Shown: piece by piece, positions 6,357-33,777 of the stretch | How the letters are laid out: the number at the start of each line of letters is the position of its first letter | Position numbering within the stretch: the first letter of the stretch is position 1 | Source: a virus | Strand: one strand, 5' to 3' | Length of the DNA stretch: 41,901 bases | Virus record (IMG/VR): IMGVR_UViG_3300017951_000030 | Coordinates: 1 to 41,901 of that record | Program-made: the position numbers and the translations under genes | The notes under the pieces: generated by a model | Databases searched by the model: none | Told to the model about the DNA's origin: nothing | What the model saw: the letters and a program-made list of their open reading frames with translations, nothing else

Positions 6357-6364
6357 TATAAATA
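6357..6364 (+). promoter_or_regulatory. T4-type late promoter motif, proximal of a tandem pair
   Basis: Second exact TATAAATA, 24 bases after the first. The expected start would fall on or just after the ATG at 6370, so a message from here would be leaderless or start within the gene. It may be redundant, or serve an internal start. Confidence 0.45.
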
Positions 6365-6369
6365 GATAT

Positions 6370-6828: not shown

Positions 6829-6832
6829 AGGG

Positions 6833-6861
6833 TTTACTTTTTAGTATTTTTGTAGTATAAT
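6833..6861 (+). promoter_or_regulatory. Early-type promoter for uvsY-uvsW
   Basis: TTTACT at 6833-6838, 17-base spacer, TATAAT at 6856-6861 preceded by TGTAG, matching the consensus repeated through this genome. It lies between the tail-tube-like gene and uvsY. Confidence 0.85.
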
Positions 6862-6894
6862 ATATAATACTATAGGTACAATATTGGAAATATT

Positions 6895-8846: not shown

Positions 8847-8848
8847 GT

Positions 8849-9250: not shown

Positions 9251-9288
9251 AAAGTTTAGTATACCTCTATCTCCCCCGGAGTTAATAT

Positions 9289-9317
9289 ATTATACTACAC
9301 TTTTCCGCAAATGTAAA
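9289..9317 (-). promoter_or_regulatory. Minus-strand early-type promoter (antisense)
   Basis: On the minus strand this reads TTTACA (9312-9317), a 17-base spacer ending in GTGTAG, then TATAAT (9289-9294). That is the exact family consensus, including the element before the -10. It points away from gene 55, towards the 3' end of the Sm-like gene at 8849-9250. No convincing minus-strand gene lies downstream, so the product may be an antisense or small RNA. Confidence 0.75.
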
Positions 9318-9327
9318 GGGGCTAAAT

Positions 9328-9348
9328 GAAAAAAACTACACTTTTTTC
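9328..9348. terminator. AT-rich hairpin between divergent promoters
   Basis: GAAAAAA at 9328-9334 pairs with TTTTTTC at 9342-9348. The same type of element occurs at 15555-15572 and 36061-36081, each time just before an early promoter. It could end transcription in either direction. Confidence 0.5.
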
Positions 9349-9361
9349 GTTAATAAAACAC

Positions 9362-9390
9362 TTTACTTTGTTCAGTTTTTGTAGTATAAT
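9362..9390 (+). promoter_or_regulatory. Early-type promoter for gene 55
   Basis: TTTACT at 9362-9367, 17-base spacer, TATAAT at 9385-9390 with GTAG before it. It is divergent from the minus-strand promoter at 9289-9317, with the -35 boxes 44 bases apart. Confidence 0.88.
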
Positions 9391-9413
9391 ATACTATTAT
9401 TGGAGAAATAATT

Positions 9414-9977
9414 ATGAAACCTAAGCAAAAGCCACATTACGTGAACAATAAGGAATTCTCTCATGCTGTAGTGGATTACGTTAATGAGTGTAATGTGAAC
9501 AAAGACAAGGGCCTTGATGTACCTACTGTCCCAGATTATATCGCCAGATGCTTTATCAAAATCGCAGAAGGCTTATCCCATAGACCGAACTTCGTGAGGT
9601 ATACCTATCGGGAAGAGATGGTTATGGATGCAGTAGAAAACTGTTTAAGAGCTATTGGCAACTATAATATAGATACTGCAACCAGAACTGGTAATCCAAA
9701 TGCATTCTCATACTTTACTCAAATATGTTACTATGCATTTATCCGTAGAATAACCAAAGAAAAGAAACAACAAGACATTAAATTTAAATTCATTGAAAAG
9801 ATGGGTATTGAAGACTTTGTTGCCATGGGTATGGATAACGCAGGGGCAGCAGAAACAATGAATTATGTTGATACACTAAGACAACGTATTTCTACTGTTA
9901 AACAAAAAGATGCTGCAGTTAAGAAATTTGCAAAAGAGGAAAAGGCTAAAGAGAAACTAGAGCTCTTTATGATATAA
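9414..9977 (+). CDS. gp55: Late-transcription sigma factor gp55
   Basis: 187 residues, the T4 gp55 size. It is a minimal sigma factor that directs host RNA polymerase to TATAAATA late promoters, several of which lie in this window. The region 2-like core is YREEMVMDAVENCLRAIGNY followed by NAFSYFTQICYYAFIRRITKEKK. The C-terminal helix ends in KEKLELFMI, a hydrophobic tail of the kind that contacts the gp45 sliding clamp. TTGGAGAAATA precedes the ATG. Its own promoter is early-type, which fits production before late transcription. Confidence 0.95.
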   Translation: MKPKQKPHYVNNKEFSHAVVDYVNECNVNKDKGLDVPTVPDYIARCFIKIAEGLSHRPNFVRYTYREEMVMDAVENCLRAIGNYNIDTATRTGNPNAFSYFTQICYYAFIRRITKEKKQQDIKFKFIEKMGIEDFVAMGMDNAGAAETMNYVDTLRQRISTVKQKDAAVKKFAKEEKAKEKLELFMI

Positions 9978-21175: not shown

Positions 21176-21202
21176 ATACTTATTAATTATGGATTGGACC
21201 TT

Positions 21203-23701
21203 ATGAATTTCTACACTAATGTTACCAGATACGGCAATATGCTACTCTATCGTGGCTATGAAAATGGCAAGAAAGTCCAGAAACGTATCAAATTCAAACC
21301 AACACTATTTGTAAATACACCGCAGGGAGATTGGACTTCCCTAGATGGTAAACCATGTGCACCTATCAAGTTCGATTCTATGCGTGAGGCCAAAGAATGG
21401 CTAGATGTAAATAAGAATACTGCTGGTAGAGAAATCTATGGTAACGATAGATACATTTCTCAATTCATCAATGAACAATTCCCTGGAACTATCGAGTTCA
21501 ATCGTAACCAAATTAATGTAACAACAATCGACATCGAGGTTGCCTCTGATGATGGATTCCCAGAACCAGATCAGGCAGAACACCCAATTATATCAATCGC
21601 CATGAAGAACAATATTGATAATACCTATTATGTGTGGGGTCTTGGCGAATACAATACTGACCAGTCCATTATGAAAACCAATCGCGTTATCTATGAACAC
21701 TGCGTATCAGAAGTAGACCTTATCAATAAATTTATCAATCATTGGTCTTTACCAAGTAACTGTCCAGATATTATTACTGGCTGGAACAGTATGTACTTTG
21801 ATATACCTTACATTATCAATCGCACAATCAGACTACTCGGCGACGAGGCACCTAAAAGATTATCACCATGGGGTATGGTAGAACGTAGAACGGCCCGTAA
21901 ACTTAACCGAGAACAAACAGTATTCAATATTCAAGGTGTTGGTCATGCTGACTATATGGAACTATTCCAAAAATATACTTACTCAGCCCAAGAGTCCTAT
22001 GCTCTTAACCACATTGCCCATATTATTCTTGGCGAGAAGAAATTATCCTATGAAGAATATGGTTCACTTCACAGCCTATACAAGAACGATCACCAAAAAT
22101 TTATTGACTATAATATCAAAGACGTTGAGTTGGTAGATCGCCTAGAAGATAAGATGGGTTTAATTACTCTCATGTTAACCATGGCATACAAAGGCGGTGT
22201 AAACTATTCCGATACTTTCGGAGTTACTGCAATCTGGGATACTATTATCTACAGATACCTAGATGCCAAAAAGATTGCCATGCCATTTGGTGAAACTAAA
22301 ATCAAGACAAACTATCCCGGCGGTTATGTAAAAGACCCTAAAGTTGGCTTACACGAACACGTGGTATCATTCGACCTTAACTCACTATATCCATCAATTA
22401 TCATGCAGTACAATATGTCGCCAGAGACAATCGAAAATGGTAAAGTATTGCCAATTAACCTAGACAAGATACTAGAGGGTTACACATTCGACAGACAAGG
22501 TAGTGCCGTAGGTGGTAATGGTCAATGTTTCACTACTACAAAACGTGGCGTCATGCCAACCTTAGTAGATGATTTATACAGTGAACGTGTTGTAATCAAG
22601 AACGAGATGATACAGGCCCAGAGAGAATTGCAGAAAGTAGTTCCAGGTGATAAACAAAAACTTTACGATATAGAACGTAGAATATCCGTTGCAGAAAACC
22701 AACAGATGGCAATTAAAATTCTACTTAACTCACTTTATGGCGCTATGGGTAACAAGTACTTCCGTTTCTTTGACCAACGTATCGCCGAGGCCATTACACT
22801 TTCTGGTCAGTTGACTATCAGATGGGCAGAAGTTGCACTTAACAGATACCTAAATAAAGTAATGAAAACAGACACCGATTATATTATCGCCATTGACACA
22901 GACTCGCTCTATGTCAATCTAGGCCCACTGGTCGAACAGGTCAACCCTTCCAATCCAGTTGACTTCCTTGATAAAGTTGCTAGTGAAAAACTAGAACCAG
23001 TCCTCAGTAAGGCATATCAAGAACTGTTCGATCAGATGGGTGGCATCGACAATCGTATGGTTATGAAAAGAGAGGCCATTGCAGATCGTGCAATCTGGAC
23101 TGCCAAGAAAAGATACATACTCAATGTCCATGATAACGAGGGTGTCCGTTACAAAGAACCTAAACTCAAAATCATGGGTATCGAGGCCATCAAATCTTCT
23201 ACTCCTGCACCATGCCGTGATGCTCTTAAAGAATTGTTCAAAGTTATTATGAAGGGTTCCGAGAAAGAAAACCAAAAGGCAATCTTACATTTCAAAGAAT
23301 ACTTCCAAACATTACCAGCACATGATATTGCATTCCCACGTGGAGTAAGTAATGTAGTCGAGTATTCCAGTGCAGAGACTATTTACAAGAAGGGTACTCC
23401 AATGCATGTACGTGCCGCTCTACTACACAATCGCCAGATCAAAGATCGTGGCCTGTCGAGAAAGTATCAACCAATCAGAAATGGCGAGAAGATCAAATTT
23501 ATCTATCTCAAAACACCCAACCCAATCAAAGAAAATGTTATCGGATTTATGCAGTATCTGCCAAAAGAGTTTGAATTGGATCACTATATAGATTATGAAA
23601 CACAATTTCAAAAGACATTCCTTGACCCTATTGAACCTATATTCAAGGCGATTGGATGGAGTACAGAAGAAACTTCAAGTTTAGAGGATTTTTTTGGATA
23701 A
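21203..23701 (+). CDS. gp43: DNA polymerase gp43 (family B)
   Basis: 832 residues (T4 898). Replicative polymerase with proofreading. Exo I has DIE at Asp110-Glu112; the polymerase motifs are DLNSLYPS (Asp391), ILLNSLYGAMGN, and IDTDS with Asp565 and Asp567. It ends in SLEDFFG, a likely clamp-binding peptide. I choose ATG 21203: the resulting N-terminus aligns with T4 gp43, while the in-frame TTG at 21194 adds three residues. A five-codon ORF at 21189-21206 overlaps this start as ATGA. No intron or split is present. Confidence 0.97.
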   Translation: MNFYTNVTRYGNMLLYRGYENGKKVQKRIKFKPTLFVNTPQGDWTSLDGKPCAPIKFDSMREAKEWLDVNKNTAGREIYGNDRYISQFINEQFPGTIEFNRNQINVTTIDIEVASDDGFPEPDQAEHPIISIAMKNNIDNTYYVWGLGEYNTDQSIMKTNRVIYEHCVSEVDLINKFINHWSLPSNCPDIITGWNSMYFDIPYIINRTIRLLGDEAPKRLSPWGMVERRTARKLNREQTVFNIQGVGHADYMELFQKYTYSAQESYALNHIAHIILGEKKLSYEEYGSLHSLYKNDHQKFIDYNIKDVELVDRLEDKMGLITLMLTMAYKGGVNYSDTFGVTAIWDTIIYRYLDAKKIAMPFGETKIKTNYPGGYVKDPKVGLHEHVVSFDLNSLYPSIIMQYNMSPETIENGKVLPINLDKILEGYTFDRQGSAVGGNGQCFTTTKRGVMPTLVDDLYSERVVIKNEMIQAQRELQKVVPGDKQKLYDIERRISVAENQQMAIKILLNSLYGAMGNKYFRFFDQRIAEAITLSGQLTIRWAEVALNRYLNKVMKTDTDYIIAIDTDSLYVNLGPLVEQVNPSNPVDFLDKVASEKLEPVLSKAYQELFDQMGGIDNRMVMKREAIADRAIWTAKKRYILNVHDNEGVRYKEPKLKIMGIEAIKSSTPAPCRDALKELFKVIMKGSEKENQKAILHFKEYFQTLPAHDIAFPRGVSNVVEYSSAETIYKKGTPMHVRAALLHNRQIKDRGLSRKYQPIRNGEKIKFIYLKTPNPIKENVIGFMQYLPKEFELDHYIDYETQFQKTFLDPIEPIFKAIGWSTEETSSLEDFFG

Positions 23702-23705
23702 ACAC

Positions 23706-23734
23706 TTTACTTTTATGCGAAAGTGTAGTATAAT
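23706..23734 (+). promoter_or_regulatory. Early-type promoter for the Sm-like/glycosyltransferase operon
   Basis: TTTACT at 23706-23711, 17-base spacer ending GTGTAG, TATAAT at 23729-23734. Its spacer end GCGAAAGTGTAG resembles that of the gene 45 promoter. Confidence 0.9.
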
Positions 23735-23760
23735 ATATAAATTAAATTAAGGAAATTATT

Positions 23761-24045
23761 ATGAAACTAGTAAGAATATCATCAGGAGAAGAGGTTATTG
23801 GAGAAGTAACCGAAACCCCTTATGGAGCAACAATTAAAAAGGGATATGTATTAATCCCTGGCGGTGAAGGTAAGATCGCATTCATGCCTTTCATGCCATA
23901 TACAAAGAGTTGGAAAGAAGGCCTTGAGATTAGTAAAAAGAATATTGTTTTTATTGCTGATCCAGTTGACGAGTTAGTTGAACAAGTAGAGGCAGTCAGA
24001 AACCCTAAGAAAATTATTTCACCTAAGAAGGACATTATAATCTAA
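23761..24045 (+). CDS. Small Sm-like phage protein
   Basis: 94 residues. MKLVRISSGEEVIGEV, then TIKKGYVLIP, KIAFMPFMPY and KNIVFIADP give the five-strand pattern of phage Sm-like proteins; a structurally solved Sm-like protein of supposed cyanophage origin belongs, as I recall, to this sort of family. It resembles the first part of the protein at 8849-9250. RNA binding is possible but unproved. First gene of an operon with the MazG-like enzyme and glycosyltransferases; its stop overlaps the next start by one base. Confidence 0.7.
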   Translation: MKLVRISSGEEVIGEVTETPYGATIKKGYVLIPGGEGKIAFMPFMPYTKSWKEGLEISKKNIVFIADPVDELVEQVEAVRNPKKIISPKKDIII

Positions 24046-24353
24046 TGAATACGAGCGTAAGAACTGGAGAATGGGTAGACAAGATTGGTCAATGGCACCA
24101 TGATAGAAACCTAATTGAAGGTGCAACAGACAAAGATCAAGTATGTAAATTAATTCAAGAAGTTGGAGAATTATCAGACAATGTATGTAAAGGGAACGAT
24201 GTTGCCGATGATATTGGTGACTGTATGGTGGTACTTATTAATATCGCTATTAGAAATGGTTTAACTATTGATAGGTGTTTAGAAGTTGCGTACAATGATA
24301 TTAAGGACAGAAAGGGCCGTATGGTTGACGGCATCTTCATCAAGGAGGAGTAA
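24045..24353 (+). CDS. MazG-like nucleotide pyrophosphohydrolase
   Basis: 102 residues, all-alpha. The metal-binding pattern EVGELSDN (Glu39, Glu42) and DVADDIGDCMVVLINIA (Asp52-Asp59) fits MazG/NTP-PPase enzymes that hydrolyse NTPs or dNTPs to monophosphates. Marine phages often carry such enzymes, which may cleanse the dNTP pool or, in phages with modified bases, remove the normal nucleotide; ppGpp control was proposed for cyanophage MazG. The substrate here is not predictable. Both ends overlap neighbours as TAATG, so it is part of a tightly coupled operon. Confidence 0.8.
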   Translation: MNTSVRTGEWVDKIGQWHHDRNLIEGATDKDQVCKLIQEVGELSDNVCKGNDVADDIGDCMVVLINIAIRNGLTIDRCLEVAYNDIKDRKGRMVDGIFIKEE

Positions 24354-25261
24354 TGGCAGGAAATCAACCCAAATATCCAATCTATATTATCTCTAAGGGT
24401 CGTGCAGACACTAGACTAACAGTTAAGACACTAGAGGCGAACGGAACTCCTTATACGATTGTAGTTGAACCACAAGAGTATGAAGAGTACGCTGCAGTTA
24501 TTGATCCAGCCAATATTTTGGTTACCCCATTTTCAAATCTAGGACAAGGATCAATTCCTGTCCGTAACTTTGTATGGGAACATGCTAAGAATACTGGTGC
24601 AGAAAGACACTGGATCCTAGATGATAATATTCAGCATATGTACAGACTACATAAAAATGCTAAGATCAAGATTACAGACGGGACATGCTTTAGTGCAAGT
24701 GAAGAGTTTACTGACAGATATGAAAATGTTAAAATGTCAGGACTGAACTACAGTTACTTCCTACCAGCAACTACAAAACGTCCACCCTATTATCATAACA
24801 CTAGGGTTTATTCTTGTATCTTACTTGCAAATGATATCTATCCAGAATTTGCATGGAGAGGTAGATTCAATGAAGATACAGACCTATCACTTAGGATTAT
24901 GAAGGCTGGTTATCACACTTTCCTATTTAATAACTTTGCTTGTGGTAAGATAACTACAATGACAATGAAAGGTGGTAATACAGAAGAGCTATATAATATA
25001 AATCAGACAGGAGATCAGAACAATAGAAAGGGTAATGAAAACTTTGATAACAGATATGAGTTTGCAGAATCACTAAGAAAGCAACATCCAGACTGTGTTA
25101 AAGTTACATGGAAATGGGGCAGGTGGCATCACCACATTGACTACTCCATATTCCAGAAAGAAAAACCCACTCTTAAGGCAGACCTAAATATACCTAAAGT
25201 GGTAGATAATAAGGGATTAAAATTAGTTAGATTAAAACAGGAGGCAATAAATGGCAGTTAA
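24353..25261 (+). CDS. GREB1/TAGT-like glycosyltransferase A
   Basis: 302 residues. GT-A fold features: YPIYIISKGRADTRLTVK near the N-terminus, VVEPQEYEEY, acidic metal motif HWILDDN, and FNEDTDLSLRIMKAGY in the acceptor region. SKGRADT plus VVEPQEYEEY is typical of the TET-associated glycosyltransferase family, found in phages and in animal GREB1 and linked to sugar transfer onto modified pyrimidines in DNA. The acceptor is unproved. A paralogue lies at 25610-26536. The start overlaps the MazG gene stop as TAATG. Confidence 0.82.
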   Translation: MAGNQPKYPIYIISKGRADTRLTVKTLEANGTPYTIVVEPQEYEEYAAVIDPANILVTPFSNLGQGSIPVRNFVWEHAKNTGAERHWILDDNIQHMYRLHKNAKIKITDGTCFSASEEFTDRYENVKMSGLNYSYFLPATTKRPPYYHNTRVYSCILLANDIYPEFAWRGRFNEDTDLSLRIMKAGYHTFLFNNFACGKITTMTMKGGNTEELYNINQTGDQNNRKGNENFDNRYEFAESLRKQHPDCVKVTWKWGRWHHHIDYSIFQKEKPTLKADLNIPKVVDNKGLKLVRLKQEAINGS

Positions 25262-25610
25262 AAATAATTCTACAAAAGATAGGCAAGCCAATTACGAAGG
25301 CGAAAGTCTATTTGTTTTATCGGGTGCAGAAGAGGCAGAAACTCCACATCAGTGGGACTCAATGCCAGAATTCGATCAAAAACAAAATGAGGCATGGAAA
25401 ATGCTAAAAGTCAGATTCCGTAATGAAGCAGACTTAATGGCATTTGCAGAATTGGTTGGGCAAACAGTAACACCAAAGACAAAAGGTATTTGGTATCCAG
25501 CAGCAGATAAATCTAAGAACTCGTTACTTAGATGGATGCATGAAGATCAGATAGAAGGCAATCCAGATGTTGATGAAGTTCTTACTGATGATGCAATAAA
25601 GGTTGAATAA
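25251..25610 (+). CDS. Small protein between the two glycosyltransferases
   Basis: 119 residues. The segment HQWDSMPEFDQKQ, then KVRFRNEADLMAFAELVGQT and TPKTKGIWYP, forms a domain I have seen in phage proteins, alone or fused to DNA-modifying enzymes, with no established function. It overlaps transferase A by 11 bases (AGGAGG precedes its ATG) and transferase B by one base (TAATG), so all three are made together and may act together. Confidence 0.75.
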   Translation: MAVKNNSTKDRQANYEGESLFVLSGAEEAETPHQWDSMPEFDQKQNEAWKMLKVRFRNEADLMAFAELVGQTVTPKTKGIWYPAADKSKNSLLRWMHEDQIEGNPDVDEVLTDDAIKVE

Positions 25611-26536
25611 TGATTAATATAAAGAACTATCTTGAAGAGCAACAAGACCTTTTTGCTCTAATGGATGGAACAGAACAAGAGTCCGATTTTAATTTAGTTG
25701 GTTTAGTAGAAGATTTAATTGCAGACTACAGCAATCAAACTTCTCAAGTATATACAGTTTATATACCATCTAAAGGCAGGGCAGATACTCCTAATACCTA
25801 TGATATTTGCAATGAAGAAAATATCCCATGTAAGGTTGTAGTTGAACCACAAGAGTATGAAGAATATCACCAAACCATTCCGTCAGAAGATTTACTTACC
25901 TTAGATAAGAATGATCAAGGTGTTCAATATGCTAGATCGTGGATTAAAAACTATTCAACAAGTATAGGTGAAGAATATCATTGGCAGTTTGATGATGATA
26001 TGAAATACTTTACAATGAGAATTGATGATAAAAATCAAAGAGTCAATCTAGTGCATTCTAAATCTATTATCGAACAAGTTGCAACTCTTTTTGAAAACTT
26101 TGCAGTTGGCGGTATGACTTCAAATGCATTTGCTTTCTCTAAACCAAATCCAGTAAAACTCAATCAGTTGGGTTATGGCTGTACATTTATTAATAATAAT
26201 TTCAAACAAGAATGGAGAGACAAGACAGTAGAAGATTGGGATTATACATTACGTGCTCTAGAGGCAGGAATGTGTACCATGGCATTCTCTCACATTAACT
26301 TTCAAACGCCATCTTCTGGCACAAACAAAGGTGGTAACAATCTTACCGACTGGGCCACTATTGAGAAAAGAAAAGAATTTTATGATTACTTCGCCTCACT
26401 CTGGCCTAAAAACTTTAGGGTAGTAGAGTTGGTAGAAGGATCAAGTAAAGGCTACAAATTAGAACATAAAAGACGTTTCTTTAACGATTATAAAAATTTA
26501 AAATTAAAGTTAAAAACCTCTTTACAAACGGATTAA
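25610..26536 (+). CDS. GREB1/TAGT-like glycosyltransferase B
   Basis: 308 residues. VYIPSKGRADTPNTYDI, VVVEPQEYEEYHQ, the acidic HWQFDDDMKYF motif and EDWDYTLRALEAGM parallel transferase A at 24353. It has a roughly 45-residue N-terminal extension that A lacks, starting MINIKNYLEEQQ, which resembles T4 capsid-targeting peptides and the N-termini of the proteins at 38967-41901. Acceptor unknown; DNA is suggested by the family. Its last codons contain the -35 box of the next promoter. Confidence 0.8.
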   Translation: MINIKNYLEEQQDLFALMDGTEQESDFNLVGLVEDLIADYSNQTSQVYTVYIPSKGRADTPNTYDICNEENIPCKVVVEPQEYEEYHQTIPSEDLLTLDKNDQGVQYARSWIKNYSTSIGEEYHWQFDDDMKYFTMRIDDKNQRVNLVHSKSIIEQVATLFENFAVGGMTSNAFAFSKPNPVKLNQLGYGCTFINNNFKQEWRDKTVEDWDYTLRALEAGMCTMAFSHINFQTPSSGTNKGGNNLTDWATIEKRKEFYDYFASLWPKNFRVVELVEGSSKGYKLEHKRRFFNDYKNLKLKLKTSLQTD

Positions 26537-26549
26537 ATTGTAGTATAAT
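26521..26549 (+). promoter_or_regulatory. Early-type promoter for the primase-like gene and ugd
   Basis: TTTACA at 26521-26526 lies inside the end of transferase B; 17-base spacer; TATAAT at 26544-26549 with GTAG. The ATG at 26560 is 10 bases after the -10, so the leader is very short. Confidence 0.88.
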
Positions 26550-26559
26550 ATACAATATT

Positions 26560-27486
26560 ATGGATAAAGTTTCTGGTACATTATTTGAGTCACTCTTTGA
26601 TGTCAAGACAGACAAGAGAATAGACTTACCATCATTTAAAGACTTTGAAGAAATACTATATCGCTTATCCGAGAAACCAAGAAAAGATAAAAAGTCAGCA
26701 GAGTTAATGTCTCCTGCTTTTTATTCTGTCGGCAGTACAAGGAAAAACGATAATGTAGAAGGCTGGGGTGGTTGGTGTGCCATAGATGTAGATGACTGCA
26801 CTGAGGACTTGAATAAGTTCCTAGAGAAAAAGTGTAAAGATTATTATTATATCTGTTACTCTACTGCTTCATCCACTAAGGACTTGCCAAAGTTTAGACT
26901 TGTCTTTCCCCTAACAGAGTTTGTAACAAAAGACAAGATTAAACATTTCTGGTTTGCGCTCAACAAGGAACTTGGAGAAATGGGCGATATACAGACCAAA
27001 GATTTATCGAGAATGTATTATATACCCGGCAAGTATGCTAACGCATATAACTTCATCTTTACAAAAGAAGGTAAGGCAATATCCCCTGTGGATATTATGT
27101 CAAGACACGAGTATATAGAAAGAAGTGGTAATACATTCTTCGATAAATTACCTAAGAGTATGCAAGAGGCTATGTTGGCCCATATGAAATCATCACTAAC
27201 AAATACTAAAGTTACATGGACTGGCTATAAAGATTGTCCATTCTTTCCAAAACAATTAGAACAAGAATATAGATCAATTACTGGAACTGGTTGGTATCAT
27301 AAAATGTATCAGATTATGGTTGCACTGGCTGGTAATGCAGTGAAGAACAAATATCCAATTACGGCAAAAGAAATCGCGTATCTTTGCAGAGAACTAGATT
27401 TAGATACTGGTAATTGGTATAAAAAGAGGCCGTTAGATAAAGAGGCTGAAAGGGCCTTAGAATTTGTGCATAGGAATAGTTTATGA
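26560..27486 (+). CDS. Primase-polymerase-like protein (AEP core plus PriCT-like C-terminus)
   Basis: 308 residues. The core WCAIDVDD (Asp76, Asp78) followed by CYSTASSTKDLPKFRLVFPL and DLSRMYYIPG matches the archaeo-eukaryotic primase layout DxD, S-x-(H-like), R. The C-terminal ITGTGWYHKMYQIMVALAGN, ITAKEIAYLCRELD and PLDKEAERALEF resemble the PriCT helical domain. It may be a primase or replication initiator; the usual His in motif II is not obvious, so catalysis is uncertain. T4 primase gene 61 is not in this window. The stop overlaps ugd (ATGA). Confidence 0.65.
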   Translation: MDKVSGTLFESLFDVKTDKRIDLPSFKDFEEILYRLSEKPRKDKKSAELMSPAFYSVGSTRKNDNVEGWGGWCAIDVDDCTEDLNKFLEKKCKDYYYICYSTASSTKDLPKFRLVFPLTEFVTKDKIKHFWFALNKELGEMGDIQTKDLSRMYYIPGKYANAYNFIFTKEGKAISPVDIMSRHEYIERSGNTFFDKLPKSMQEAMLAHMKSSLTNTKVTWTGYKDCPFFPKQLEQEYRSITGTGWYHKMYQIMVALAGNAVKNKYPITAKEIAYLCRELDLDTGNWYKKRPLDKEAERALEFVHRNSL

Positions 27487-28667
27487 GTAAAAAAATTACA
27501 GTAGTAGGAGCAGGTTATGTCGGTATGGCAAATGCCACAATGCTTGCAAAATACAATGACGTTAAAATTTTAGAGCTGAGTGATGATAAGGTAGATGATA
27601 TTAACCATGGTGTCTCTCCTATATTTGATCCAGATATTTCAAATGAATTGCCATTAATGGGAATTATTGCAACAAGATCTGCTGATGAGGCATATTCGGA
27701 AGGGCCAGATATAGTTATGATCGCAACACCAACAGACTATGATCCAGATACGGATTCATTTGATACTAAGTCTGTAGAATATGTTATCGGCGATGTGGTT
27801 AGAAGAAACTTTAATCCTATCATTATTATTAAGTCCACTATTCCAGTAGGCTTTGTTGATTCTATGAGAGAGAAGTTCCAGTATGAAAACATTATATTCT
27901 CGCCAGAATTTTTAAGAGAGGGTAGGGCATTAAGAGATGCTCTCAGGCCAACAAGAATTGTAGTTGGTGATAGAAGTGATGAGGCTACAGAATTTGCAAA
28001 TGTAATAAAAGAGGCTATTATCCCACAGTCAATTGAACCACCTGTAATCTATACAGGAACAAGAGAAGCAGAAGCGATTAAGTTATTTGCAAACGGCTAT
28101 CTTGCTATGAGAGTTACCTTTTTTAACGAGCTGGATATGTATGCAGAAAGATATGGATTAAGTCCTCGTGATATTATTGAAGGTGTTGGCTATGATGAAC
28201 GTATTGGAAGACACTATAATAACCCTTCATTTGGTTACGGCGGTTACTGTTTTCCAAAAGATACCAAACAACTAAAGGCTCTTTATACTAAAGGTAATAT
28301 ACCTAATGATATTATAAGTTCAATCGTTGATTCTAATGAAACAAGAATGGACTGGATAACAAGGCGTATTCTATATAAGAAGCCTAAGACAGTAGGAATC
28401 TATAGGCTAATTATGAAATCTGGTTCAGATAACTTTAGAAGTTCTGCAATACAAGGTGTTATAGAACGTCTCAAAAAGAGAACAGAAGTTATTATTTACG
28501 AGCCCGAATTTCCACCAGAGATTGAAAACCTTATGGATTGTGAGATCGAGCATTTCCTAAATAGTTTTAAACGAAGATCAGACGTTATCGTTACCAATAG
28601 AATGGATGGCGAACTTTTAGATGTTTATGATAAAGTATATACGCGAGATGTTTTCAATAATAATTAA
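27483..28667 (+). CDS. ugd: UDP-glucose/GDP-mannose dehydrogenase family (Ugd-like)
   Basis: 394 residues. Oxidises a nucleotide-hexose to its uronate, most often UDP-glucose to UDP-glucuronate, with two NAD. Rossmann motif GAGYVG (9-14), IKSTIPVG, FSPEFLREGRAL, EAIKLFANGYLA (Lys200, Asn204) and the catalytic Cys256 in GYGGYCFPKD are intact; the third domain is present though divergent. It overlaps the primase-like gene by four bases. With the SDR at 28729 it could supply an unusual UDP-sugar to the glycosyltransferases upstream. Confidence 0.92.
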   Translation: MSKKITVVGAGYVGMANATMLAKYNDVKILELSDDKVDDINHGVSPIFDPDISNELPLMGIIATRSADEAYSEGPDIVMIATPTDYDPDTDSFDTKSVEYVIGDVVRRNFNPIIIIKSTIPVGFVDSMREKFQYENIIFSPEFLREGRALRDALRPTRIVVGDRSDEATEFANVIKEAIIPQSIEPPVIYTGTREAEAIKLFANGYLAMRVTFFNELDMYAERYGLSPRDIIEGVGYDERIGRHYNNPSFGYGGYCFPKDTKQLKALYTKGNIPNDIISSIVDSNETRMDWITRRILYKKPKTVGIYRLIMKSGSDNFRSSAIQGVIERLKKRTEVIIYEPEFPPEIENLMDCEIEHFLNSFKRRSDVIVTNRMDGELLDVYDKVYTRDVFNNN

Positions 28668-28676
28668 CAAAAACAC

Positions 28677-28705
28677 TTTACATTTATTAAAAAGTGTAGT
28701 ATAAT
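28677..28705 (+). promoter_or_regulatory. Early-type promoter for the SDR-to-nucleotidyltransferase operon
   Basis: TTTACA at 28677-28682, 17-base spacer ending GTGTAG, TATAAT at 28700-28705, flanked upstream by AAAACAC. Confidence 0.9.
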
Positions 28706-28728
28706 AGTACCATTAAAAGGTAAAGAAC

Positions 28729-29580
28729 ATGAGTAAAATATTAGTTACAGGTGGAGAAGGATTTATCGGATCCAACCTTATCAAGAGGCTCCTCAAACAA
28801 GGCCATGAAGTAGTATCAATGGATAATGGCCATTCAAATAAAATCACAAATAGACACAAAGGCTGTACATATTATTTCGGAGATGCATTTGATCTCTTTA
28901 GTACACTTCAACACACTAATCCTTGCTTTGATTATATCTATCACTTCGGAGAATATGCAAGAGTAGAACAATCATTTGATGATTACGATACAGTTATTGA
29001 TTATAACTTAATGCAGTTTCCAGAAGTCCTAAGATTTGCATCATATCAAAATGCCAAACTTATCTACTCTGGTTCATCTACTAAGTTTGCAGATAATACA
29101 TATTCTGCTAGTCCATATGCATATACCAAAGCGCAAAATACAGAACTTCTTAAAAATTATGCAAACTGGTTTGGACTAGACCACGTGATAGTATATTTCT
29201 ATAATGCATATGGAGACAATGAGATTGATAGAGGTAAATATGCCACAGTGGTTGGTAAGTTCCTAAGAATGGTAAAAGAAGGCAAGAAAGAATTACCTAT
29301 GACTGGAGATGGCTCACAATTAAGAAACTTTACTCACGTTGATGATATAGTAGATGGCCTTTTGCTTGCTGCCGAACATGGAGATGGCGATAATTATGGT
29401 ATAGGTGCAGATGAACAACATTCAATACGTGATCTAATTAATTACCTAGGTGCTGAACCTAACTTTAAACCAGATAAACCAGGCAATAGAAAATCAGGTA
29501 AATTAGTTACACAGAAAATAAAAGACTTAGGTTGGAGTCCTAAGAGAGATTTAAAAACTTATATTAAGGAAAGGCTATGA
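28729..29580 (+). CDS. NAD-dependent sugar-nucleotide epimerase/dehydratase (extended SDR)
   Basis: 283 residues. NAD-binding GGEGFIG (8-14), the YHFGEYARVEQS segment, SGSST at 114-118 and catalytic YAYTK (Tyr130, Lys134) are intact. GalE, UDP-glucuronate decarboxylase and dTDP-glucose dehydratase relatives all share these; I cannot choose between epimerase and decarboxylase from motifs. Placed just after ugd, a UDP-glucuronate epimerase or decarboxylase (giving UDP-xylose) is the most economical guess. It is slightly short for the family (usual 310-330). Confidence 0.85.
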   Translation: MSKILVTGGEGFIGSNLIKRLLKQGHEVVSMDNGHSNKITNRHKGCTYYFGDAFDLFSTLQHTNPCFDYIYHFGEYARVEQSFDDYDTVIDYNLMQFPEVLRFASYQNAKLIYSGSSTKFADNTYSASPYAYTKAQNTELLKNYANWFGLDHVIVYFYNAYGDNEIDRGKYATVVGKFLRMVKEGKKELPMTGDGSQLRNFTHVDDIVDGLLLAAEHGDGDNYGIGADEQHSIRDLINYLGAEPNFKPDKPGNRKSGKLVTQKIKDLGWSPKRDLKTYIKERL

Positions 29581-29756
29581 GTATTGAAAAAATCGTAGAA
29601 AAATTTAAAGTTATAGACCCTAAACTTAGAACCTACTATATTGGAAAGTGGGCCGAAGAAAAAGGTATTGACTCAGACCTTGCAATGGAAATGGCAGGTT
29701 ATGTAAAAGATGGTTATATAGGTGCAGGTGCTTGGAATTGGAGGTATCAACAATGA
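29577..29756 (+). CDS. Small protein coupled to the SDR and hydrolase genes
   Basis: 59 residues, overlapping the SDR stop (ATGA) and the next start (ATGA). Helical: MSIEKIVEKFKVID, then LRTYYIGKWAEEKGIDSD and GYVKDGYIGAGAWNWRY. No transmembrane segment and no motif I know. The overlaps on both sides make it a real gene. Confidence 0.75.
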   Translation: MSIEKIVEKFKVIDPKLRTYYIGKWAEEKGIDSDLAMEMAGYVKDGYIGAGAWNWRYQQ

Positions 29757-30259
29757 AAAATATAATGAACGTTGCAATATTACTTGCACTAGTATCAATA
29801 GGCTTTGTCGGCCAAATTAATGCAATAAATGTAACAGATGAACAAGCAGAGGCAAGATTTTGTCTAGCACAGAACATATATTTTGAATCAGCCAATCAAC
29901 CATATGCAGGTAGAGTGGCAGTCGCAAACGTTGTTATGAATAGGGTAGAGGATTTACAGTTCCCTGATACAGTTTGCGGTGTAATATATCAAGCGAAACT
30001 AAGAGAAAACTGGAAAGGCAATATGGTTCCTGTAAGAAATCAATGTCAGTTCAGTTGGTATTGTGATGGTAAGTCGGATGAACCCACGGATTCAGTTACG
30101 TGGATGGAATCTTTACGTATCGCACATTTAGTATTGACAGGCACAGTGCCTGACTTAACGGAGGGAGCTCTGTATTATCATGCAGATTTTGTATCACCAT
30201 ATTGGGCTCCATATTTAACCAAGGTTGTTACTATAGACAACCACATTTTTTATAAGTAG
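29753..30259 (+). CDS. Secreted SleB-like cell wall hydrolase
   Basis: 168 residues. Residues 1-24 form a signal peptide ending in QINA. The mature part has the Hydrolase_2 (SleB) pattern: CLAQNIYFESANQPYAGRVA with the catalytic-type Glu, VANVVMNRV, FPDTVCGVIYQA and CQFSWYCDGK. SleB enzymes cut peptidoglycan glycan strands. It could be the endolysin, exported by the host Sec system, so a classical holin may not be needed. I choose ATG 29753 (GGAGG nine bases upstream, ATGA overlap) over 29732. It sits under an early-type promoter. Confidence 0.88.
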   Translation: MKNIMNVAILLALVSIGFVGQINAINVTDEQAEARFCLAQNIYFESANQPYAGRVAVANVVMNRVEDLQFPDTVCGVIYQAKLRENWKGNMVPVRNQCQFSWYCDGKSDEPTDSVTWMESLRIAHLVLTGTVPDLTEGALYYHADFVSPYWAPYLTKVVTIDNHIFYK

Positions 30260-30265
30260 AGTAAT

Positions 30266-30511
30266 ATGAGAAAAGACGGATTTCAAGACCAATACGAAAC
30301 AGTATGTGAAGTGACTTGCATTGATAATGGCAGATCAATGGAAGTAGATGTAATTAACTTTAGGCCAGAACATTCTTGCAAGATACTGGTAGAAAAAAAG
30401 ATTGATGTTTTTCTCAAGTATAATGCCAAGCATGATCTATATGTAGGATCAAAAGCAGGTATGGACTTTACAACAAAAGGCCCATCATATATTGGGTCAT
30501 TTAGATATTAA
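30266..30511 (+). CDS. Protein of unknown function
   Basis: 81 residues beginning six bases after the hydrolase stop. A strand-rich pattern: YETVCEVTCIDNGRSMEVDV, HSCKILVEKKIDVFLKYN and DLYVGSKAGMDFTTKGP, suggesting a small beta-barrel. Two Cys lie in the N-terminal half. No signal peptide. I do not recognise a family; it is part of the operon 28729-32057. Confidence 0.7.
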   Translation: MRKDGFQDQYETVCEVTCIDNGRSMEVDVINFRPEHSCKILVEKKIDVFLKYNAKHDLYVGSKAGMDFTTKGPSYIGSFRY

Positions 30512-30520
30512 GGAGAATTA

Positions 30521-30949
30521 ATGTATCAGTATAAAGCATATGTAACGAAAGTAGTAGATGGAGACACGGTCGATGTAGATGTCGATTTAGGTTTCGGAAT
30601 GATTTATAAGAAGCAAAGAGTCAGAATGGTGGGAATAGATACACCCGAATCAAGAACAAGAGATTTAGAAGAAAAGTTTTTTGGAAAGGCTTCTAAGGCT
30701 CATCTTAAAAAACTGTTAGAACAAAACGACAATAAAGTTTATTTAACATCACATGATAAAGGTAAGTTTGGCCGTATTCTAGGCGACTTGCGTTTAACAC
30801 ATGATGCAGATAAAACTGTTAATCAAATAATGATTGACGATTTTCATGCTGTTGAATATTACGGCGGGAATAAAGAGCTTACTGAAAAGGCTCATTTGGA
30901 GAATAGAGTAGCACTTGGACTTAAAGGGCTAGTTTATGTTAAAGATTAA
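30521..30949 (+). CDS. SNase-like nuclease (thermonuclease family)
   Basis: 142 residues, the size of mature staphylococcal nuclease. VVDGDTV (Asp13, Asp15), RVRMVGIDTPE (Arg35, Asp40, Glu43) and KFGR (Arg85) are the metal-binding and catalytic residues of the family. It hydrolyses DNA or RNA with calcium. There is no signal peptide, so it probably acts in the host cytoplasm, perhaps on host nucleic acid. AAGGAG lies just before the ATG. Confidence 0.92.
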   Translation: MYQYKAYVTKVVDGDTVDVDVDLGFGMIYKKQRVRMVGIDTPESRTRDLEEKFFGKASKAHLKKLLEQNDNKVYLTSHDKGKFGRILGDLRLTHDADKTVNQIMIDDFHAVEYYGGNKELTEKAHLENRVALGLKGLVYVKD

Positions 30950-30969
30950 TTATATTATGGAGAAAAATT

Positions 30970-31638
30970 ATGGCTTATCCTAAAGCATACATGGAAACAC
31001 TTGGATCATACGTCTATGGATATTATCCTGAAGGACTGAGTGGTCAAGCAGAATATATTGGTAAAGGGGTAGACACACGTTGTCTAGCTCATGTAAAAGA
31101 TAAAAACCAAGACCCGGCAAATCTTTATATCTTAGGTAGAAACCTAGAGAAGTATGCCAAATCAACACCAGCAGAAGAGATTGCATCTTTTGCCGCAGAG
31201 GCAGCAATCATTGCGATTACTAATCCTAAACTGAATAGTGTTTCGGGTAGATATGGAGACCTATGGAAACCAGAAAGACTTGACGACTTATATCAAGAAT
31301 GGAAGAAACAACAAATCAATCCAGTAAAAGAATCAATGAGATTTTATAATGATCACCCAGAAATCCAAGAGCATGTTAAAGGCATGTGGGCAACGGGTAA
31401 CTCATTTGTATTTACTTCGCCAACTTCAAATGGAATTGAATATATACTAAACGTGACTCCAGAAGTAGATGGGTTTGTTCCAGTTGTTAAAGTTAAATTC
31501 TCTAGGGATAAGAGAGAAGAGCTAAGAGAAAAGTGGATTAAAGATAATGATTCAGAATATAATCTAAGTGCAGATGGAGAAATGGTAAACGTAACAGGAT
31601 TAACAGTGGAGAAAGCCATAGAGCTTTGGATGTCATGA
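30970..31638 (+). CDS. GIY-YIG-domain protein
   Basis: 222 residues. The N-terminal domain has YVYGYYP (14-20), AEYIGKG (27-33), Arg37, His41 and an acidic helix with Glu77 (SFAAEAAII), matching GIY-YIG nucleases of the LEM-3-like type rather than typical homing enzymes. The C-terminal 120 residues contain a strand-rich domain, SNGIEYILNVTPEVDGFVPV, of unknown role. It is embedded in an operon (31635 start overlaps its stop as ATGA), so it does not look like an intruding homing gene. Confidence 0.75.
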   Translation: MAYPKAYMETLGSYVYGYYPEGLSGQAEYIGKGVDTRCLAHVKDKNQDPANLYILGRNLEKYAKSTPAEEIASFAAEAAIIAITNPKLNSVSGRYGDLWKPERLDDLYQEWKKQQINPVKESMRFYNDHPEIQEHVKGMWATGNSFVFTSPTSNGIEYILNVTPEVDGFVPVVKVKFSRDKREELREKWIKDNDSEYNLSADGEMVNVTGLTVEKAIELWMS

Positions 31639-32057
31639 GAGTAGGAATTACAGCATCAACATTTGACTTGCTACATGCAGGTCATTGTGCTATGTTAAGA
31701 GAAGCAAAAACACAATGTGATTATCTTATTTGTGCACTACAAAATGACCCATCATTAGATAGACCAGATAAGAATAAACCAATTCAAAATATAGTAGAAA
31801 GACAAGCGCAACTAGCCGCAATTAAATATGTGGATGAAATCCTAGTATATAATACCGAACTAGAGTTGCTCGATATTCTAGCCATGTATGACATTGATGT
31901 CAAAATTATGGGTGTTGAATATAGAGACAAAGACTTTACAGGTAAGGATATGTGCCAAAAAAGAGGCATTGAATTCTACTTTAATAAGCGAGATCATCGC
32001 TTTTCAACAACAAACTTACGCGAAAGAATTGAACAAAACACTTTACAATCTGAGTGA
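31635..32057 (+). CDS. Cytidylyltransferase-like nucleotidyltransferase
   Basis: 140 residues. The HxGH motif is His14-Ala-Gly-His17 in TFDLLHAGH, and the C-terminal FSTTNLRERI corresponds to the STTxLxxRI motif of glycerol-3-phosphate cytidylyltransferase and RfaE/HldE-type enzymes. It should join a nucleotide to a phosphorylated polyol or sugar, and thus belongs functionally with the UDP-sugar genes of this operon. Start 31635 is chosen for its ATGA overlap with the preceding stop; the in-frame TTG at 31626 is less likely. Confidence 0.87.
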   Translation: MRVGITASTFDLLHAGHCAMLREAKTQCDYLICALQNDPSLDRPDKNKPIQNIVERQAQLAAIKYVDEILVYNTELELLDILAMYDIDVKIMGVEYRDKDFTGKDMCQKRGIEFYFNKRDHRFSTTNLRERIEQNTLQSE

Positions 32058-32070
32058 ATTGTAGTATAAT
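32042..32070 (+). promoter_or_regulatory. Early-type promoter for rpsU-uvsX
   Basis: TTTACA at 32042-32047 inside the end of the nucleotidyltransferase gene, 17-base spacer, TATAAT at 32065-32070 with GTAG; AAAACAC lies before the -35. Confidence 0.9.
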
Positions 32071-32097
32071 ATACTTAATATTAAAACAGGAGAATAT

Positions 32098-32364
32098 ATG
32101 CCGTCAATAGATTTAAGACCTAGGAAAAGACACCCTAAGGATAAAAGACCAGCAAAACCAATGCCGTTTGACGTAGCCCTAAGAAAATTTAGAAAGGCTG
32201 TTGAACGCGCTGGTATTTTGCAAGATGTTCGTAGAAAGGAGTTCTATGAAAAACCTACTGCGAAAAGAAAACGTAAAAAGGCCGAAGCCGTCGCAAGATG
32301 GAGAAAGAAAGAAAGGGCCATTGAAATGCAATTAGGTACTGGTAGTACCAGGAGAAAAAGATAA
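32098..32364 (+). CDS. rpsU: Ribosomal protein bS21
   Basis: 88 residues. From residue 22 the sequence [19 protein letters not shown], then [20 protein letters not shown] follows bacterial bS21 almost without gaps (PFDVALRRFKR..., VRRREFYEKPT...). bS21 is a small-subunit protein near the anti-Shine-Dalgarno region that helps start translation. Phage copies, known from marine phages, may replace the host protein and favour phage messages. It has an extended basic N-terminus and C-terminus compared with the 71-residue E. coli protein. First gene after a strong early promoter; AGGAG precedes the ATG and TAATG couples it to uvsX. Confidence 0.96.
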
Positions 32365-33419
32365 TGTCAGTAATGGATAAATTAAAAAAGAATTCTAAGA
32401 TCAAGACAACCAATGTATTGTCTAAATCAGTATTCTTTACAGAAAAAGATATGGTACCAACTGAAGTACCAATGGTAAACGTAGCTCTATCTGGAGATAC
32501 GGAAGGTGGTCTTACATCAGGACTAACAGTTCTTGCAGGGCCTAGTAAACACTTTAAAACTTCTTTTGCCCTACTTATGGCAGGTGCGTATATGAAGGAA
32601 CATGAAGATTCAGTATTATTATTTTATGATTCAGAGTTTGGTTCACCACAATCATACTTCGAAGCATTTGGTATTGATACTGATAGAGTATTGCATACTC
32701 CAATTACAGATGTGGAACAACTCAAGTTTGACCTAGTATCACAATTAGATAATATAGAAAGAGGTGATAAGGTAGTTATTGTAATTGATTCTATCGGTAA
32801 CCTAGCATCTAAGAAAGAGCTAGAAGATGCTCTTAGTGAAAAATCAGTTGCAGATATGTCCAGGGCAAAAGCACTGAAAGGATTATTCAGAATGGTTACT
32901 CCTTATTTAACCATGAAGAATGTTCCACTTCTCGCAGTTAACCATACTTACCAAGAGATTGGTCTATTCCCTAAAGCTATCGTATCAGGTGGTACAGGAA
33001 TTTACTACTCAGCAGATAACATCTGGATTCTTGGCCGTAGACAAAATAAGACAGGTTCAGATGTAACAGGTTATGACTTTATTATCAATGTAGAGAAGTC
33101 AAGATTTGTAAAAGAGAAGTCAAAGATTCCAGTATCAGTTTCATGGGAAGGTGGTATTGAAACTTATTCAGGCTTACTAGATATTGCCTTGGCAGGTGGA
33201 TATGTGGTTAAACCTACAGTCGGTTGGTATTCAAGAGTAGATCAAGCTACTGGCGAAGTATTACAGCCAAAAGTAAGACAGAAAGATACACTTACTAAAG
33301 AATTTTGGGATCCAATCTTTAATGAAACAGACTTCAAAAAGTTTATTAAATCTTACTATCAGATAGGACATAAACCTTTGTTAGAAATTGATTTAGAAAC
33401 CACTTTACAAGAGGAGTAA
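32364..33419 (+). CDS. uvsX: UvsX RecA-like recombinase
   Basis: 351 residues (T4 391). Strand-exchange protein that works with UvsY. Walker A is AGPSKHFKTS with Lys65, close to T4 UvsX. Further blocks are LLFYDSEFGSP, the Walker B-like VVIVIDSIGNLASKKE, and VNHTYQEIG. The C-terminal tail is acidic, ending LEIDLETTLQEE. The start overlaps rpsU as TAATG. Its final codons contain a -35 box and the ribosome site of the next gene. Confidence 0.96.
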   Translation: MSVMDKLKKNSKIKTTNVLSKSVFFTEKDMVPTEVPMVNVALSGDTEGGLTSGLTVLAGPSKHFKTSFALLMAGAYMKEHEDSVLLFYDSEFGSPQSYFEAFGIDTDRVLHTPITDVEQLKFDLVSQLDNIERGDKVVIVIDSIGNLASKKELEDALSEKSVADMSRAKALKGLFRMVTPYLTMKNVPLLAVNHTYQEIGLFPKAIVSGGTGIYYSADNIWILGRRQNKTGSDVTGYDFIINVEKSRFVKEKSKIPVSVSWEGGIETYSGLLDIALAGGYVVKPTVGWYSRVDQATGEVLQPKVRQKDTLTKEFWDPIFNETDFKKFIKSYYQIGHKPLLEIDLETTLQEE

Positions 33420-33432
33420 AATGGAGTATAAT
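33404..33432 (+). promoter_or_regulatory. Early-type promoter spanning the uvsX/33421 junction
   Basis: TTTACA at 33404-33409 in the last uvsX codons, 17-base spacer, TATAAT at 33427-33432 within codons 3-4 of the next gene. A transcript would start near 33439, past that gene's ATG, so it would serve helicase gene 41 and later genes. Confidence 0.65.
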
Positions 33433-33777
33433 ATAACTAACAAAGATTATACTTTGGTCGAAAACGATAGTGGAGAACTAGCAGACTTCTATGGTATCAG
33501 ACTAAAGACTGGCAAATGGAAAAATGTAATCTTCGTTTATGGTAAAGTATCCGTAAAAGAAGATCAGACAAATGATACAGCAACATTATCATTTACATAC
33601 ACTATCCAAGACCCAGTCGATCATGATATAGATAAACTGCAAAGTGATCCAGATTTTAATAACTACCTAGGTGCTTTGTTACAACATATTATTTCAGAAA
33701 ACCTAGAGAACAAAGAGGCACAAATTGGATTTAAAACATCAACTACCGACACACATACTGAGCAACTTACTGAATAA
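33421..33777 (+). CDS. Conserved-type protein between uvsX and gene 41
   Basis: 118 residues with GAGGAG seven to ten bases upstream, inside uvsX. Strand-rich: DYTLVENDSGELADFYGIRL, KTGKWKNVIFVYGKVSVKED and TATLSFTYTIQDP, followed by a helix, DFNNYLGALLQHIISENL. No catalytic motif. Small proteins at this position are common in marine T4-like phages, without known function. Its 3' end overlaps gene 41 by 53 bases. A promoter lies across its start codon. Confidence 0.8.
   Translation: MEYNITNKDYTLVENDSGELADFYGIRLKTGKWKNVIFVYGKVSVKEDQTNDTATLSFTYTIQDPVDHDIDKLQSDPDFNNYLGALLQHIISENLENKEAQIGFKTSTTDTHTEQLTE

Follow-up and report, generated by a model that had tools for sequence, protein, structure and literature searches.

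The 41,901-base virus record IMGVR_UViG_3300017951_000030 (hereafter the window, meaning the whole stretch that was analysed) is a fragment of a T4-type myovirus genome, and it raises the question of what acceptor is served by two TAGT-like glycosyltransferases encoded, together with sugar-nucleotide genes, between its DNA polymerase and its UvsX recombinase. A sequence-only reading of this DNA had proposed a DNA-sugar module; the TAGT family and the location, which in some relatives and in T4 and T6 is a DNA-modification slot, speak for that proposal, whereas the link to hydroxymethyl-pyrimidine and the pentose donor that it included were not sustained. Our analysis leans towards the view that the genes at 24045-29580, less a primase-like gene, form a DNA-glycosylation cassette in an exchangeable slot of a T4-type phage. 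On sequence grounds, the first transferase is a member of a widespread clade linked to a small partner domain, which we name MPEF, and stands apart from the hydroxymethylcytosine type of phage T6.

Results

Two TAGT glycosyltransferases and a small partner gene

Three adjoining genes constitute the center of the locus:

24353-25261, + strand, TAGT1, a GT-A glycosyltransferase and the core enzyme (PF20691, 158.3 bits, E 3.2e-46, full model)
25251-25610, + strand, orf119, the MPEF domain partner of TAGT1 (MPEF profile near TAGT; alignment)
25610-26536, + strand, TAGT2, a second PF20691 glycosyltransferase, optional and faster-evolving (92.2 bits, E 5.5e-26, full model)

The two transferases, scored as proteins and again on DNA against a curated PF20691 cut-off of 27.5 bits, are TAGT enzymes as had been claimed, and TAGT1 is so additionally by its predicted GT-A fold; at E 0.1, neither matched any further Pfam family of glycosyltransferases. 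The AlphaFold2 model of TAGT1 (pLDDT 87.1) showed a confident GT-A fold, whose top row in VIA-align was 5ggf, the human O-mannose N-acetylglucosaminyltransferase (Z 14.9, rmsd 3.1, 192 aligned); the name "POMGNT1-like" for this fold is our own reading. TarP (6h1j, Z 13.1) and collagen galactosyltransferase were also among the top solved folds, and the top row in Foldseek was Mimivirus R699. Residues D90, D91, N92, N173, D175 and G207-N209 of TAGT1 were invariant among 25 aligned sequences, and the window enzymes share with that of T6 the DDN/DDD and NED/VED columns, which we take to be the DxD-like and acidic catalytic motifs.

In a 24-row tree the T6 transferase (ggt, a long branch) and the gp42-linked TAGT of locus L263 were split from the 22 others (100/98), and both window enzymes fell outside this pair. 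The neighbors of TAGT1 were the enzymes of phages Aeh1, 65, PTm1, Kuja and 1.124.O, while TAGT2 grouped loosely (81/86) with the TET-linked TAGT of L047, itself a long branch.

The 119-aa product of orf119, a gene that the earlier reading had not listed, gave nothing above cut-off against Pfam, PHROGs or NCBIfam models and has no Pfam family; its relatives share the aligned pattern W-x-x-MPEF ... VRFRNEEDxxxFA ... KTKSIWYP, from which we coined the name. Relatives were gathered with TAGT1 as a single query (45 loci in viral contigs) and with a 25-sequence TAGT1 alignment, for which 80 of 596 matches were kept, plus 53 loci from bacterial and archaeal assemblies. Removal of three duplicates left 174 loci, and subtraction of six with no detected TAGT open reading frame (ORF) left 168; these are not independent, many being close kin, and the Fisher tests given below ignore kinship. 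A match to the MPEF profile lay at most 2.5 kb from TAGT in 146 of the 168 loci, a figure that measures association and not independence, as the profile was built from the same locus family. Eleven of the 22 loci lacking MPEF were cut by a contig edge, and the TET-linked L047 was among the other 11.

Besides its free-standing form, MPEF occurs fused to TAGT (16/168 loci) or joined to a ParB-like domain (41/168). The PHROG and phage matches of the domain joined to MPEF include DNA methyltransferases, and the ParB-like part of L028 matched PHROGs annotated as DNA methyltransferase and as ParB-like partition protein; beyond these matches the label "ParB-like" is our reading. By BLAST, MPEF and TAGT reside in one protein in Aeh1, phiAS5, phage 65 and 1.076.O; the fusion in 1.124.O was read by eye and from 64.5% identity to the fused TAGT of 1.076.O. 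In the model of the fused L042 protein the N-terminal domain was poor (pLDDT ~40-60). A tblastn search of phages with orf119 itself found no match. A divergent MPEF query (from L033) found 12 records, representing 8 phages, among 50,697 phage records, all with TAGT adjoining the match, and two loci in viral contigs, the new one of which also has TAGT beside it. Our searches of open-licence PMC papers showed no description of this partner.

A core transferase and its variable companions

The order of the block is kept in close kin, with TAGT2 missing from some. Between the window and the L005 record, the nonsynonymous divergence (dN) of TAGT1 (0.039) was like that of the polymerase (0.044) and UvsX (0.052), whereas TAGT2 (0.117), Ugd (UDP-glucose 6-dehydrogenase, 0.132) and the short-chain dehydrogenase/reductase (SDR, 0.139) had diverged more. 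Against G004, the nearest long relative (120.8 kb, incomplete), the values were 0.050 for TAGT1, 0.43 for TAGT2, 0.33 for Ugd and 0.24 for SDR. As TAGT1 changes as slowly as the polymerase and the other three faster, we regard TAGT1 as core and the others as variable. The interval in which the window has TAGT2, flanked by the partner gene and the primase-like gene, contained TAGT2 in 17 of 44 loci (a count that takes in near-identical kin and the duplicates L120, L121 and L268), no gene of at least 90 aa in 12, and other genes in 15. The replacements include a GT-B-like protein in L015 (below cut-off) and a similar one, by eye, in L182, a methyltransferase-like protein in L111 (very weak score), and in L113 a protein with no Pfam match that resembles a glycosyltransferase by eye.

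The 47-kb phages 1.076.O and 1.124.O have five proteins in common at E 1e-3, of which the fused TAGT (64.5%) is by far the closest, and with G004 they share only TAGT/MPEF, plus a helicase for one of them. With so little in common, no acceptor-making gene appears to travel with TAGT1 among these three.

The slot between polymerase and UvsX

The borders of the slot were named through their counterparts in phage C48C1 (OQ984149):

21194-23701, + strand, gp43-type DNA polymerase, left border (same position as the annotated C48C1 DNA polymerase)
32364-33419, + strand, UvsX-type recombinase, right border (74.3% identity to the C48C1 "DNA repair protein"; further matches named UvsX)

The slot contains p527a, a MazG-like gene, TAGT1, orf119, TAGT2, a primase-like gene, Ugd, SDR, an endolysin-like gene, a nuclease-like gene and a cytidylyltransferase-like gene (CyT), plus a few unknowns. 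Start-to-stop overlaps chain MazG, TAGT1, orf119 and TAGT2 and, separately, the primase-like gene and Ugd. When the window was set against the L005 record, each of ten genes from the slot and its borders had a pN/pS ratio of 0.08-0.25, which indicates that these genes are real. Megablast of 21194-33500 against phages returned zero matches. Elsewhere in the window, Pfam, PHROGs and NCBIfam named structural genes (tail sheath, tail tube, portal, head protease, scaffold and major head protein), replication and repair genes (UvsY, helicase, SbcD/SbcC-like subunits, clamp, clamp loader, DnaB-like helicase and ligase), a late sigma factor, a RegA-like repressor and ThyX.

As a control we collected 80 UvsX-based loci and C48C1, and used the 27 of these 81 that have both slot borders. 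TAGT was present in 5 of the complete slots and Ugd in 20. A gene like T4 gp42 was found in six slots free of Ugd (L244, L289, L299, L306, L263 and L242), the first five sharing the NDYAW motif of T4 gp42 and L242 giving only a weak match (E 4e-6); in L275, with Ugd inside the slot, a gp42-like gene lies outside. Over the 27 loci, 19 had Ugd only, 6 gp42 only, 1 both and 1 neither (Fisher p 1.6e-4, kinship ignored). The L306 slot contains a cassette (4075-9768) in which four families are matched above cut-off: PF00303 (the gp42-like enzyme), PF11440 (DNA alpha-glucosyltransferase), NTP transferase and C5 cytosine methylase. In T4 the same slot carries gene 42 with beta-gt, and in T6 gene 42 with TAGT. 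This alternation with hydroxymethylase and DNA-glucosyltransferase cassettes in relatives, T4 and T6 is the main support for DNA as the acceptor.

Two further gene groups deserve mention. L289 (5716-9212) and C48C1 (49583-53030) have in common an unnamed gene, which we read as a transferase, and a UDP-galactopyranose mutase-like gene (PF03275 in L289). In L289 this pair has the gp42-like gene nearby and in C48C1 it adjoins a Tet_JBP match; it may serve a furanosyl DNA modification. In L244 (5785-9706) and L299 (7131-9960) three or four unknown genes follow the gp42-like enzyme, one of them PLP-dependent-looking by eye; the three tested had no Pfam match, and they might represent a further hypermodification pathway.

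Enzymes that could create an acceptor

A search of the window for PF00303, the hydroxymethylase/thymidylate-synthase family, was empty, in line with the earlier observation that no hydroxymethylase is present there. The family was also absent from the records of G004, G031 (150.8 kb), L159 (121 kb) and L277 (177.5 kb). It was found in 2 of 45 TAGT1 records (G033 and G034), none of 19 further ones, 3 of 14 UvsX records (G069, G072 and G076, whose fetched loci contain no MPEF-linked TAGT), and 8 of 11 isolates, which is 8 of the 10 isolate records with TAGT. Aligned beside T4 gp42, the proteins of G033, G034, Aeh1, phiAS5, PTm1 and 12B8 have the appearance of ordinary thymidylate synthases, and the Kuja, phage 65 and avDM6 proteins are divergent and of unsettled class; the alignment left out the split gene of POP12 and weaker second matches in Aeh1 and PTm1. 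We therefore rejected the nearness of PF00303 to TAGT1 as proof of hydroxymethylation. No gp42-like gene occurred in the fetched stretch of any of 153 TAGT and MPEF loci, G004 and near kin included; 18 of the 80 UvsX loci have one.

Oxygenases of the Tet_JBP type were matched in 1 of the same 45 records (L047), 0 of the 19, 1 of the 14 (L313, 55 bits) and 1 of the 11 (C48C1, 65 bits), and not in the records of G004, G031, L277, L159, L125 and L137. A TET enzyme as the source of the acceptor was discarded, given that C48C1 and the L313 locus lack TAGT. Pfam scans of 20 window proteins found no Tet_JBP, no dedicated PF12851 search of the window having been made. From G004 we picked 60 proteins with no window homologue (20.4-103 kb) and ran 56 of them against Pfam, as two batches that shared some proteins; no oxygenase was among the best 25 of 40 and the best 25 of 32 families. 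PF13640 had no match in six TAGT1 records. The proposed link to hydroxymethyl-pyrimidine is thus weakened by the lack of PF00303 in the window and of PF00303 or Tet_JBP in the 120.8-kb relative and other long metagenomic TAGT1 records, and further by the separation of TAGT1 from the T6 type in the tree.

Donor synthesis and other neighboring genes

The remaining features of the slot are as follows:

24045-24353, + strand, MazG-like NTP pyrophosphohydrolase (PHROG 1992, E 8e-38; PHROG 715, E 2e-34)
26560-27486, + strand, primase-like lineage gene (PHROG 9765 DNA primase, E 4e-46; also in TAGT-free relatives)
27483-28667, + strand, Ugd (3phl, E 1e-129; TIGR03026 above cut-off)
28729-29580, + strand, extended SDR, nucleotide-sugar epimerase-like (4zrm, named UDP-glucose 4-epimerase, E 2e-26; relatives aligned)
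31626-32057, + strand, CyT, of uncertain cassette membership (PF01467, 50.9 bits; PDB 3elb, 1coz)

These calls agree with the ORF positions given earlier, save a small shift in the start of CyT (31626 against 31635). The dehydrogenase proposed at 27483 is a full-length Ugd: its nearest solved relative, 3phl, matched over the full length with the cysteine-motif stretch NPSFGYGGYCFPKD aligned, its third Pfam domain scoring 29.3 against a cut-off of 30. The extended SDR at 28729 was likewise recovered, its best solved matches being named UDP-glucose 4-epimerase; 4lk3 (E 9e-14) ranked behind the epimerases. UDP-xylose synthases carry a T-S-E motif (Glu), at whose place the window SDR and its relatives have S-S-T-K, in an alignment that contained no UDP-xylose synthase. 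Since the SDR is epimerase-like and has S-S-T in place of T-S-E, UDP-glucuronate and UDP-galacturonate are our first guesses for the donor; the pentose UDP-sugar suggested earlier is not favored, as there is no sign that the SDR is a decarboxylase, and pentose is a guess.

Ugd and SDR occurred in 40 and 38 of the 168 TAGT1 loci, respectively, but their candidacy as TAGT-specific partners was overturned by the UvsX-locus control. Beyond the T4-type group, Ugd, SDR and TAGT1 occur together in phage Kuja and in L045, which has Ugd, ParB-MPEF, a glycosyltransferase, TAGT1 and SDR side by side. As for CyT, a cytidylyltransferase had been predicted and PF01467 is above cut-off, but the specific models are not: it falls between heptose-1-P adenylyltransferase (HldE domain II) and glycerol-3-P cytidylyltransferase (GCT), below the cut-offs of both. 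CyT lies near Ugd/SDR in L022, L024, L104, L123, L125, L131, L154 and L159, and also in the TAGT-free slots L275 and L310.

A MazG-like enzyme in the same operon had also been noted; the PHROG matches and the start-to-stop overlap with TAGT1 bear this out. Such a gene is directly upstream of TAGT1 in 23 of 46 T4-like loci, and the Pfam MazG match of the window gene (E 0.0046) is below cut-off. The primase-like gene, missing from the earlier reading, separates the transferases from the sugar genes and is probably outside the cassette. In the TAGT1 phages of L123 (2645-4138, by Pfam) and L124 (10947-12323, by eye) an HNH protein of 458-497 aa lies between the primase-like and sugar genes. A eukaryote-type phosphomannomutase (PF03332, tested on L109 alone) is near the cassette in L109 (7986-8690), with similar genes in L021, L022, L154, L277 and L295. 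Upstream of TAGT1, L018 (9279-9929, by Pfam) and L025 (670-1320, by likeness) encode an FkbM-type methyltransferase, possibly for sugar O-methylation. At ~29.7-35.6 kb, placed by reading, G004 has proteins matching CsgF, CsgG, curlin repeat, CHASE2, a cyclase domain and FecR. A survey of SAR11 myophages, in the part concerned, describes a curli cluster in such phages (PMC7029224).

Discussion

The best reading of the locus is DNA modification, supported by the TAGT profile match and fold, the exchange of slot contents, the ParB-linked forms of MPEF, the upstream MazG and the co-occurrence of Ugd, SDR and TAGT1. We infer DNA as the acceptor, as well as the order of sugars and the donor. In this scheme TAGT1, a GT-A enzyme, together with its MPEF partner orf119, would place a first sugar onto phage DNA, and TAGT2 would add or vary a further sugar. 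Ugd and SDR would convert host UDP-glucose to UDP-glucuronate and perhaps to a second uronate donor, UDP-galacturonate being a guess, and MazG may trim a competing nucleotide.

Several results weigh against this scheme. No base-hydroxylating enzyme was evident in the window or in the TAGT1/MPEF metagenomic records searched, and the listed fold neighbors of TAGT1 are mostly protein or polysaccharide glycosyltransferases. TAGT1 is mildly basic (pI 8.8) and TAGT2 (5.0) and orf119 (4.7) are acidic. Ugd was present in 4 of 5 TAGT slots and in 16 of 22 TAGT-free slots (Fisher p 1.0); being no commoner with TAGT than without it, Ugd may serve another enzyme. Finally, in the relevant portion of the SAR11 myophage survey, Ugd, RfaE and glycosyltransferase genes were read as LPS-modifying (PMC7029224), the kinship of those phages with ours not being established.

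The last two points bear on a live rival, which we judge unlikely, namely that Ugd, SDR, CyT and the transferases alter the LPS or capsule of the host during infection and block superinfection. The retention of Ugd in most TAGT-free slots fits such a role, as does the resemblance of CyT to HldE domain II, below cut-off, and TAGT1 has other glycosyltransferases as neighbors in L045 (PF04488) and L040 (PF00534), both above cut-off, and in L015, below it. The pelagimyophage survey, in the part concerned, argues for this role and notes that over 100 SAR11 genomes contain a single restriction-modification system (PMC7029224). However, the window transferases match none of the other glycosyltransferase families of Pfam, in some relatives dCMP hydroxymethylase and AGT cassettes take the same slot, and TAGT1 evolves as slowly as the polymerase and has a ParB-linked partner. 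Modification of a virion or host protein by TAGT1 and MPEF, also a live rival, seems to us a weaker candidate still. The TAGT domain of GREB1 modifies proteins in animals, and the top solved folds include protein glycosyltransferases (5ggf and collagen galactosyltransferase). Moreover, the 1.076.O gene is flanked by portal and head morphogenesis genes, TAGT is upstream of genes read by eye as terminase in L027, L032, L044 and L045, and the annotated nucleotide-modification genes of the two 47-kb phages, both partial genomes, are methylases and dUTPase only. Against this, the location in the window lineage is a replication region, and both the fusions of ParB with MPEF and the precedent of T6 favor DNA.

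The model proposed originally, a glycosylated 5-hydroxymethylpyrimidine bearing a pentose or uronate, with the hydroxymethylase encoded in the missing part of the genome, now appears improbable. The window is only a 41.9-kb fragment, gp42-like genes do occur in UvsX loci and, in L275, outside a slot containing Ugd; L035 and L036 have a thymidylate-synthase-family gene near TAGT1, MPEF, TAGT2 and SDR, and most TAGT-bearing isolate records match PF00303. Nevertheless, not one of the 153 TAGT and MPEF loci has a gp42-like gene in its fetched stretch, the four long records lack PF00303, and several of the isolate proteins resemble ordinary thymidylate synthases, those of Kuja, phage 65 and avDM6 being divergent.

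The closest known systems compare with the proposed DNA-glycosylation cassette as follows. The beta-glucosyl-HMC alpha-glucosyltransferase of T6 and T2 is, like the window enzymes, a PF20691 member in the gene 43-uvsX slot; in T6, gene 42 is beside TAGT and the annotation shows nothing separating the two (no search for MPEF was made in T6), whereas the window lacks PF00303 and its transferases fall elsewhere in the tree than T6 ggt. TET-associated phage TAGTs, with one of which TAGT2 is loosely grouped, are oxygenase-linked, whereas the TAGT1/MPEF records searched gave no Tet_JBP match. The putative glucosyltransferase of Aeromonas phage Aeh1 is of the TAGT1 type with an MPEF-like domain at its N-terminus, resembling the window pair, but it is a fused enzyme and a single TAGT, whereas the window has a separate orf119 and two TAGTs. 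In a section of a 2021 survey, after Iyer et al. 2013, the Aeh1 glucosyltransferase is presumed to modify DNA at an "unknown base" (PMC8056088); we assume that it is the TAGT gene analysed here.

The RB69-type arabinosyl-cytosine cassette also has its sugar genes between polymerase and UvsX, as described in part of one report (PMC6024577). RB69 uses a GT-B transferase and a large multi-domain protein, with the base derived from a thymidylate-synthase homologue, according to a portion of another (PMC13390438). Neither the GT-B arabinosyltransferase nor the multi-domain partner had a match among the slot proteins scanned, the window being a fragment. In Bacillus phage SP-15, which has hypermodified uracil, a Ugd encoded by the phage is proposed to provide glucuronate for DNA, as stated in an excerpt of the corresponding study (PMC5977210); SP-15 differs in having a hydroxymethyl-deoxyuridine synthase and another gene set. 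Vibrio phage Kuja (Ackermannviridae) has the same gene types as the window, two tandem TAGTs of the TAGT1 clade and an adjacent Ugd-SDR pair, which are the nearest annotated phage homologues (39% for Ugd and 47% for SDR; two unannotated "Listeria phage" records have a nearer Ugd, 50%). However, in Kuja the pair is ~60 kb from the TAGTs and a thymidylate-synthase-family gene is present. A portion of a 2026 study reports that 288 of 753 phage genomes have TAGT but neither the alpha- nor the beta-glucosyltransferase of T-even phages, and suggests that novel transferases occur there (PMC13216743).

A bolder proposal, which we advance tentatively and consider doubtful, is that TAGT1 and MPEF, the latter often on a ParB-like module, form a self-contained DNA glycosyltransferase, mobile by horizontal transfer, that works without any hydroxylation encoded by the phage. 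Its target would be a base or other DNA position common to all phages, or a hydroxyl introduced by a so far unrecognised enzyme, and the variable TAGT2 and donor genes would retune the sugar between close strains.

In summary, the locus is best read as encoding a variant system of DNA glycosylation that belongs to the MPEF-linked type of TAGT, with surface glycan and protein as live rival acceptors. TAGTs can now be divided into a hydroxymethylase-linked T6 type and an MPEF-linked type, the partner gene of the latter has a name, and isolates carrying the fused enzyme have been identified. If it is true that DNA is the acceptor without prior hydroxymethylation, this system would represent a new route to modified DNA.

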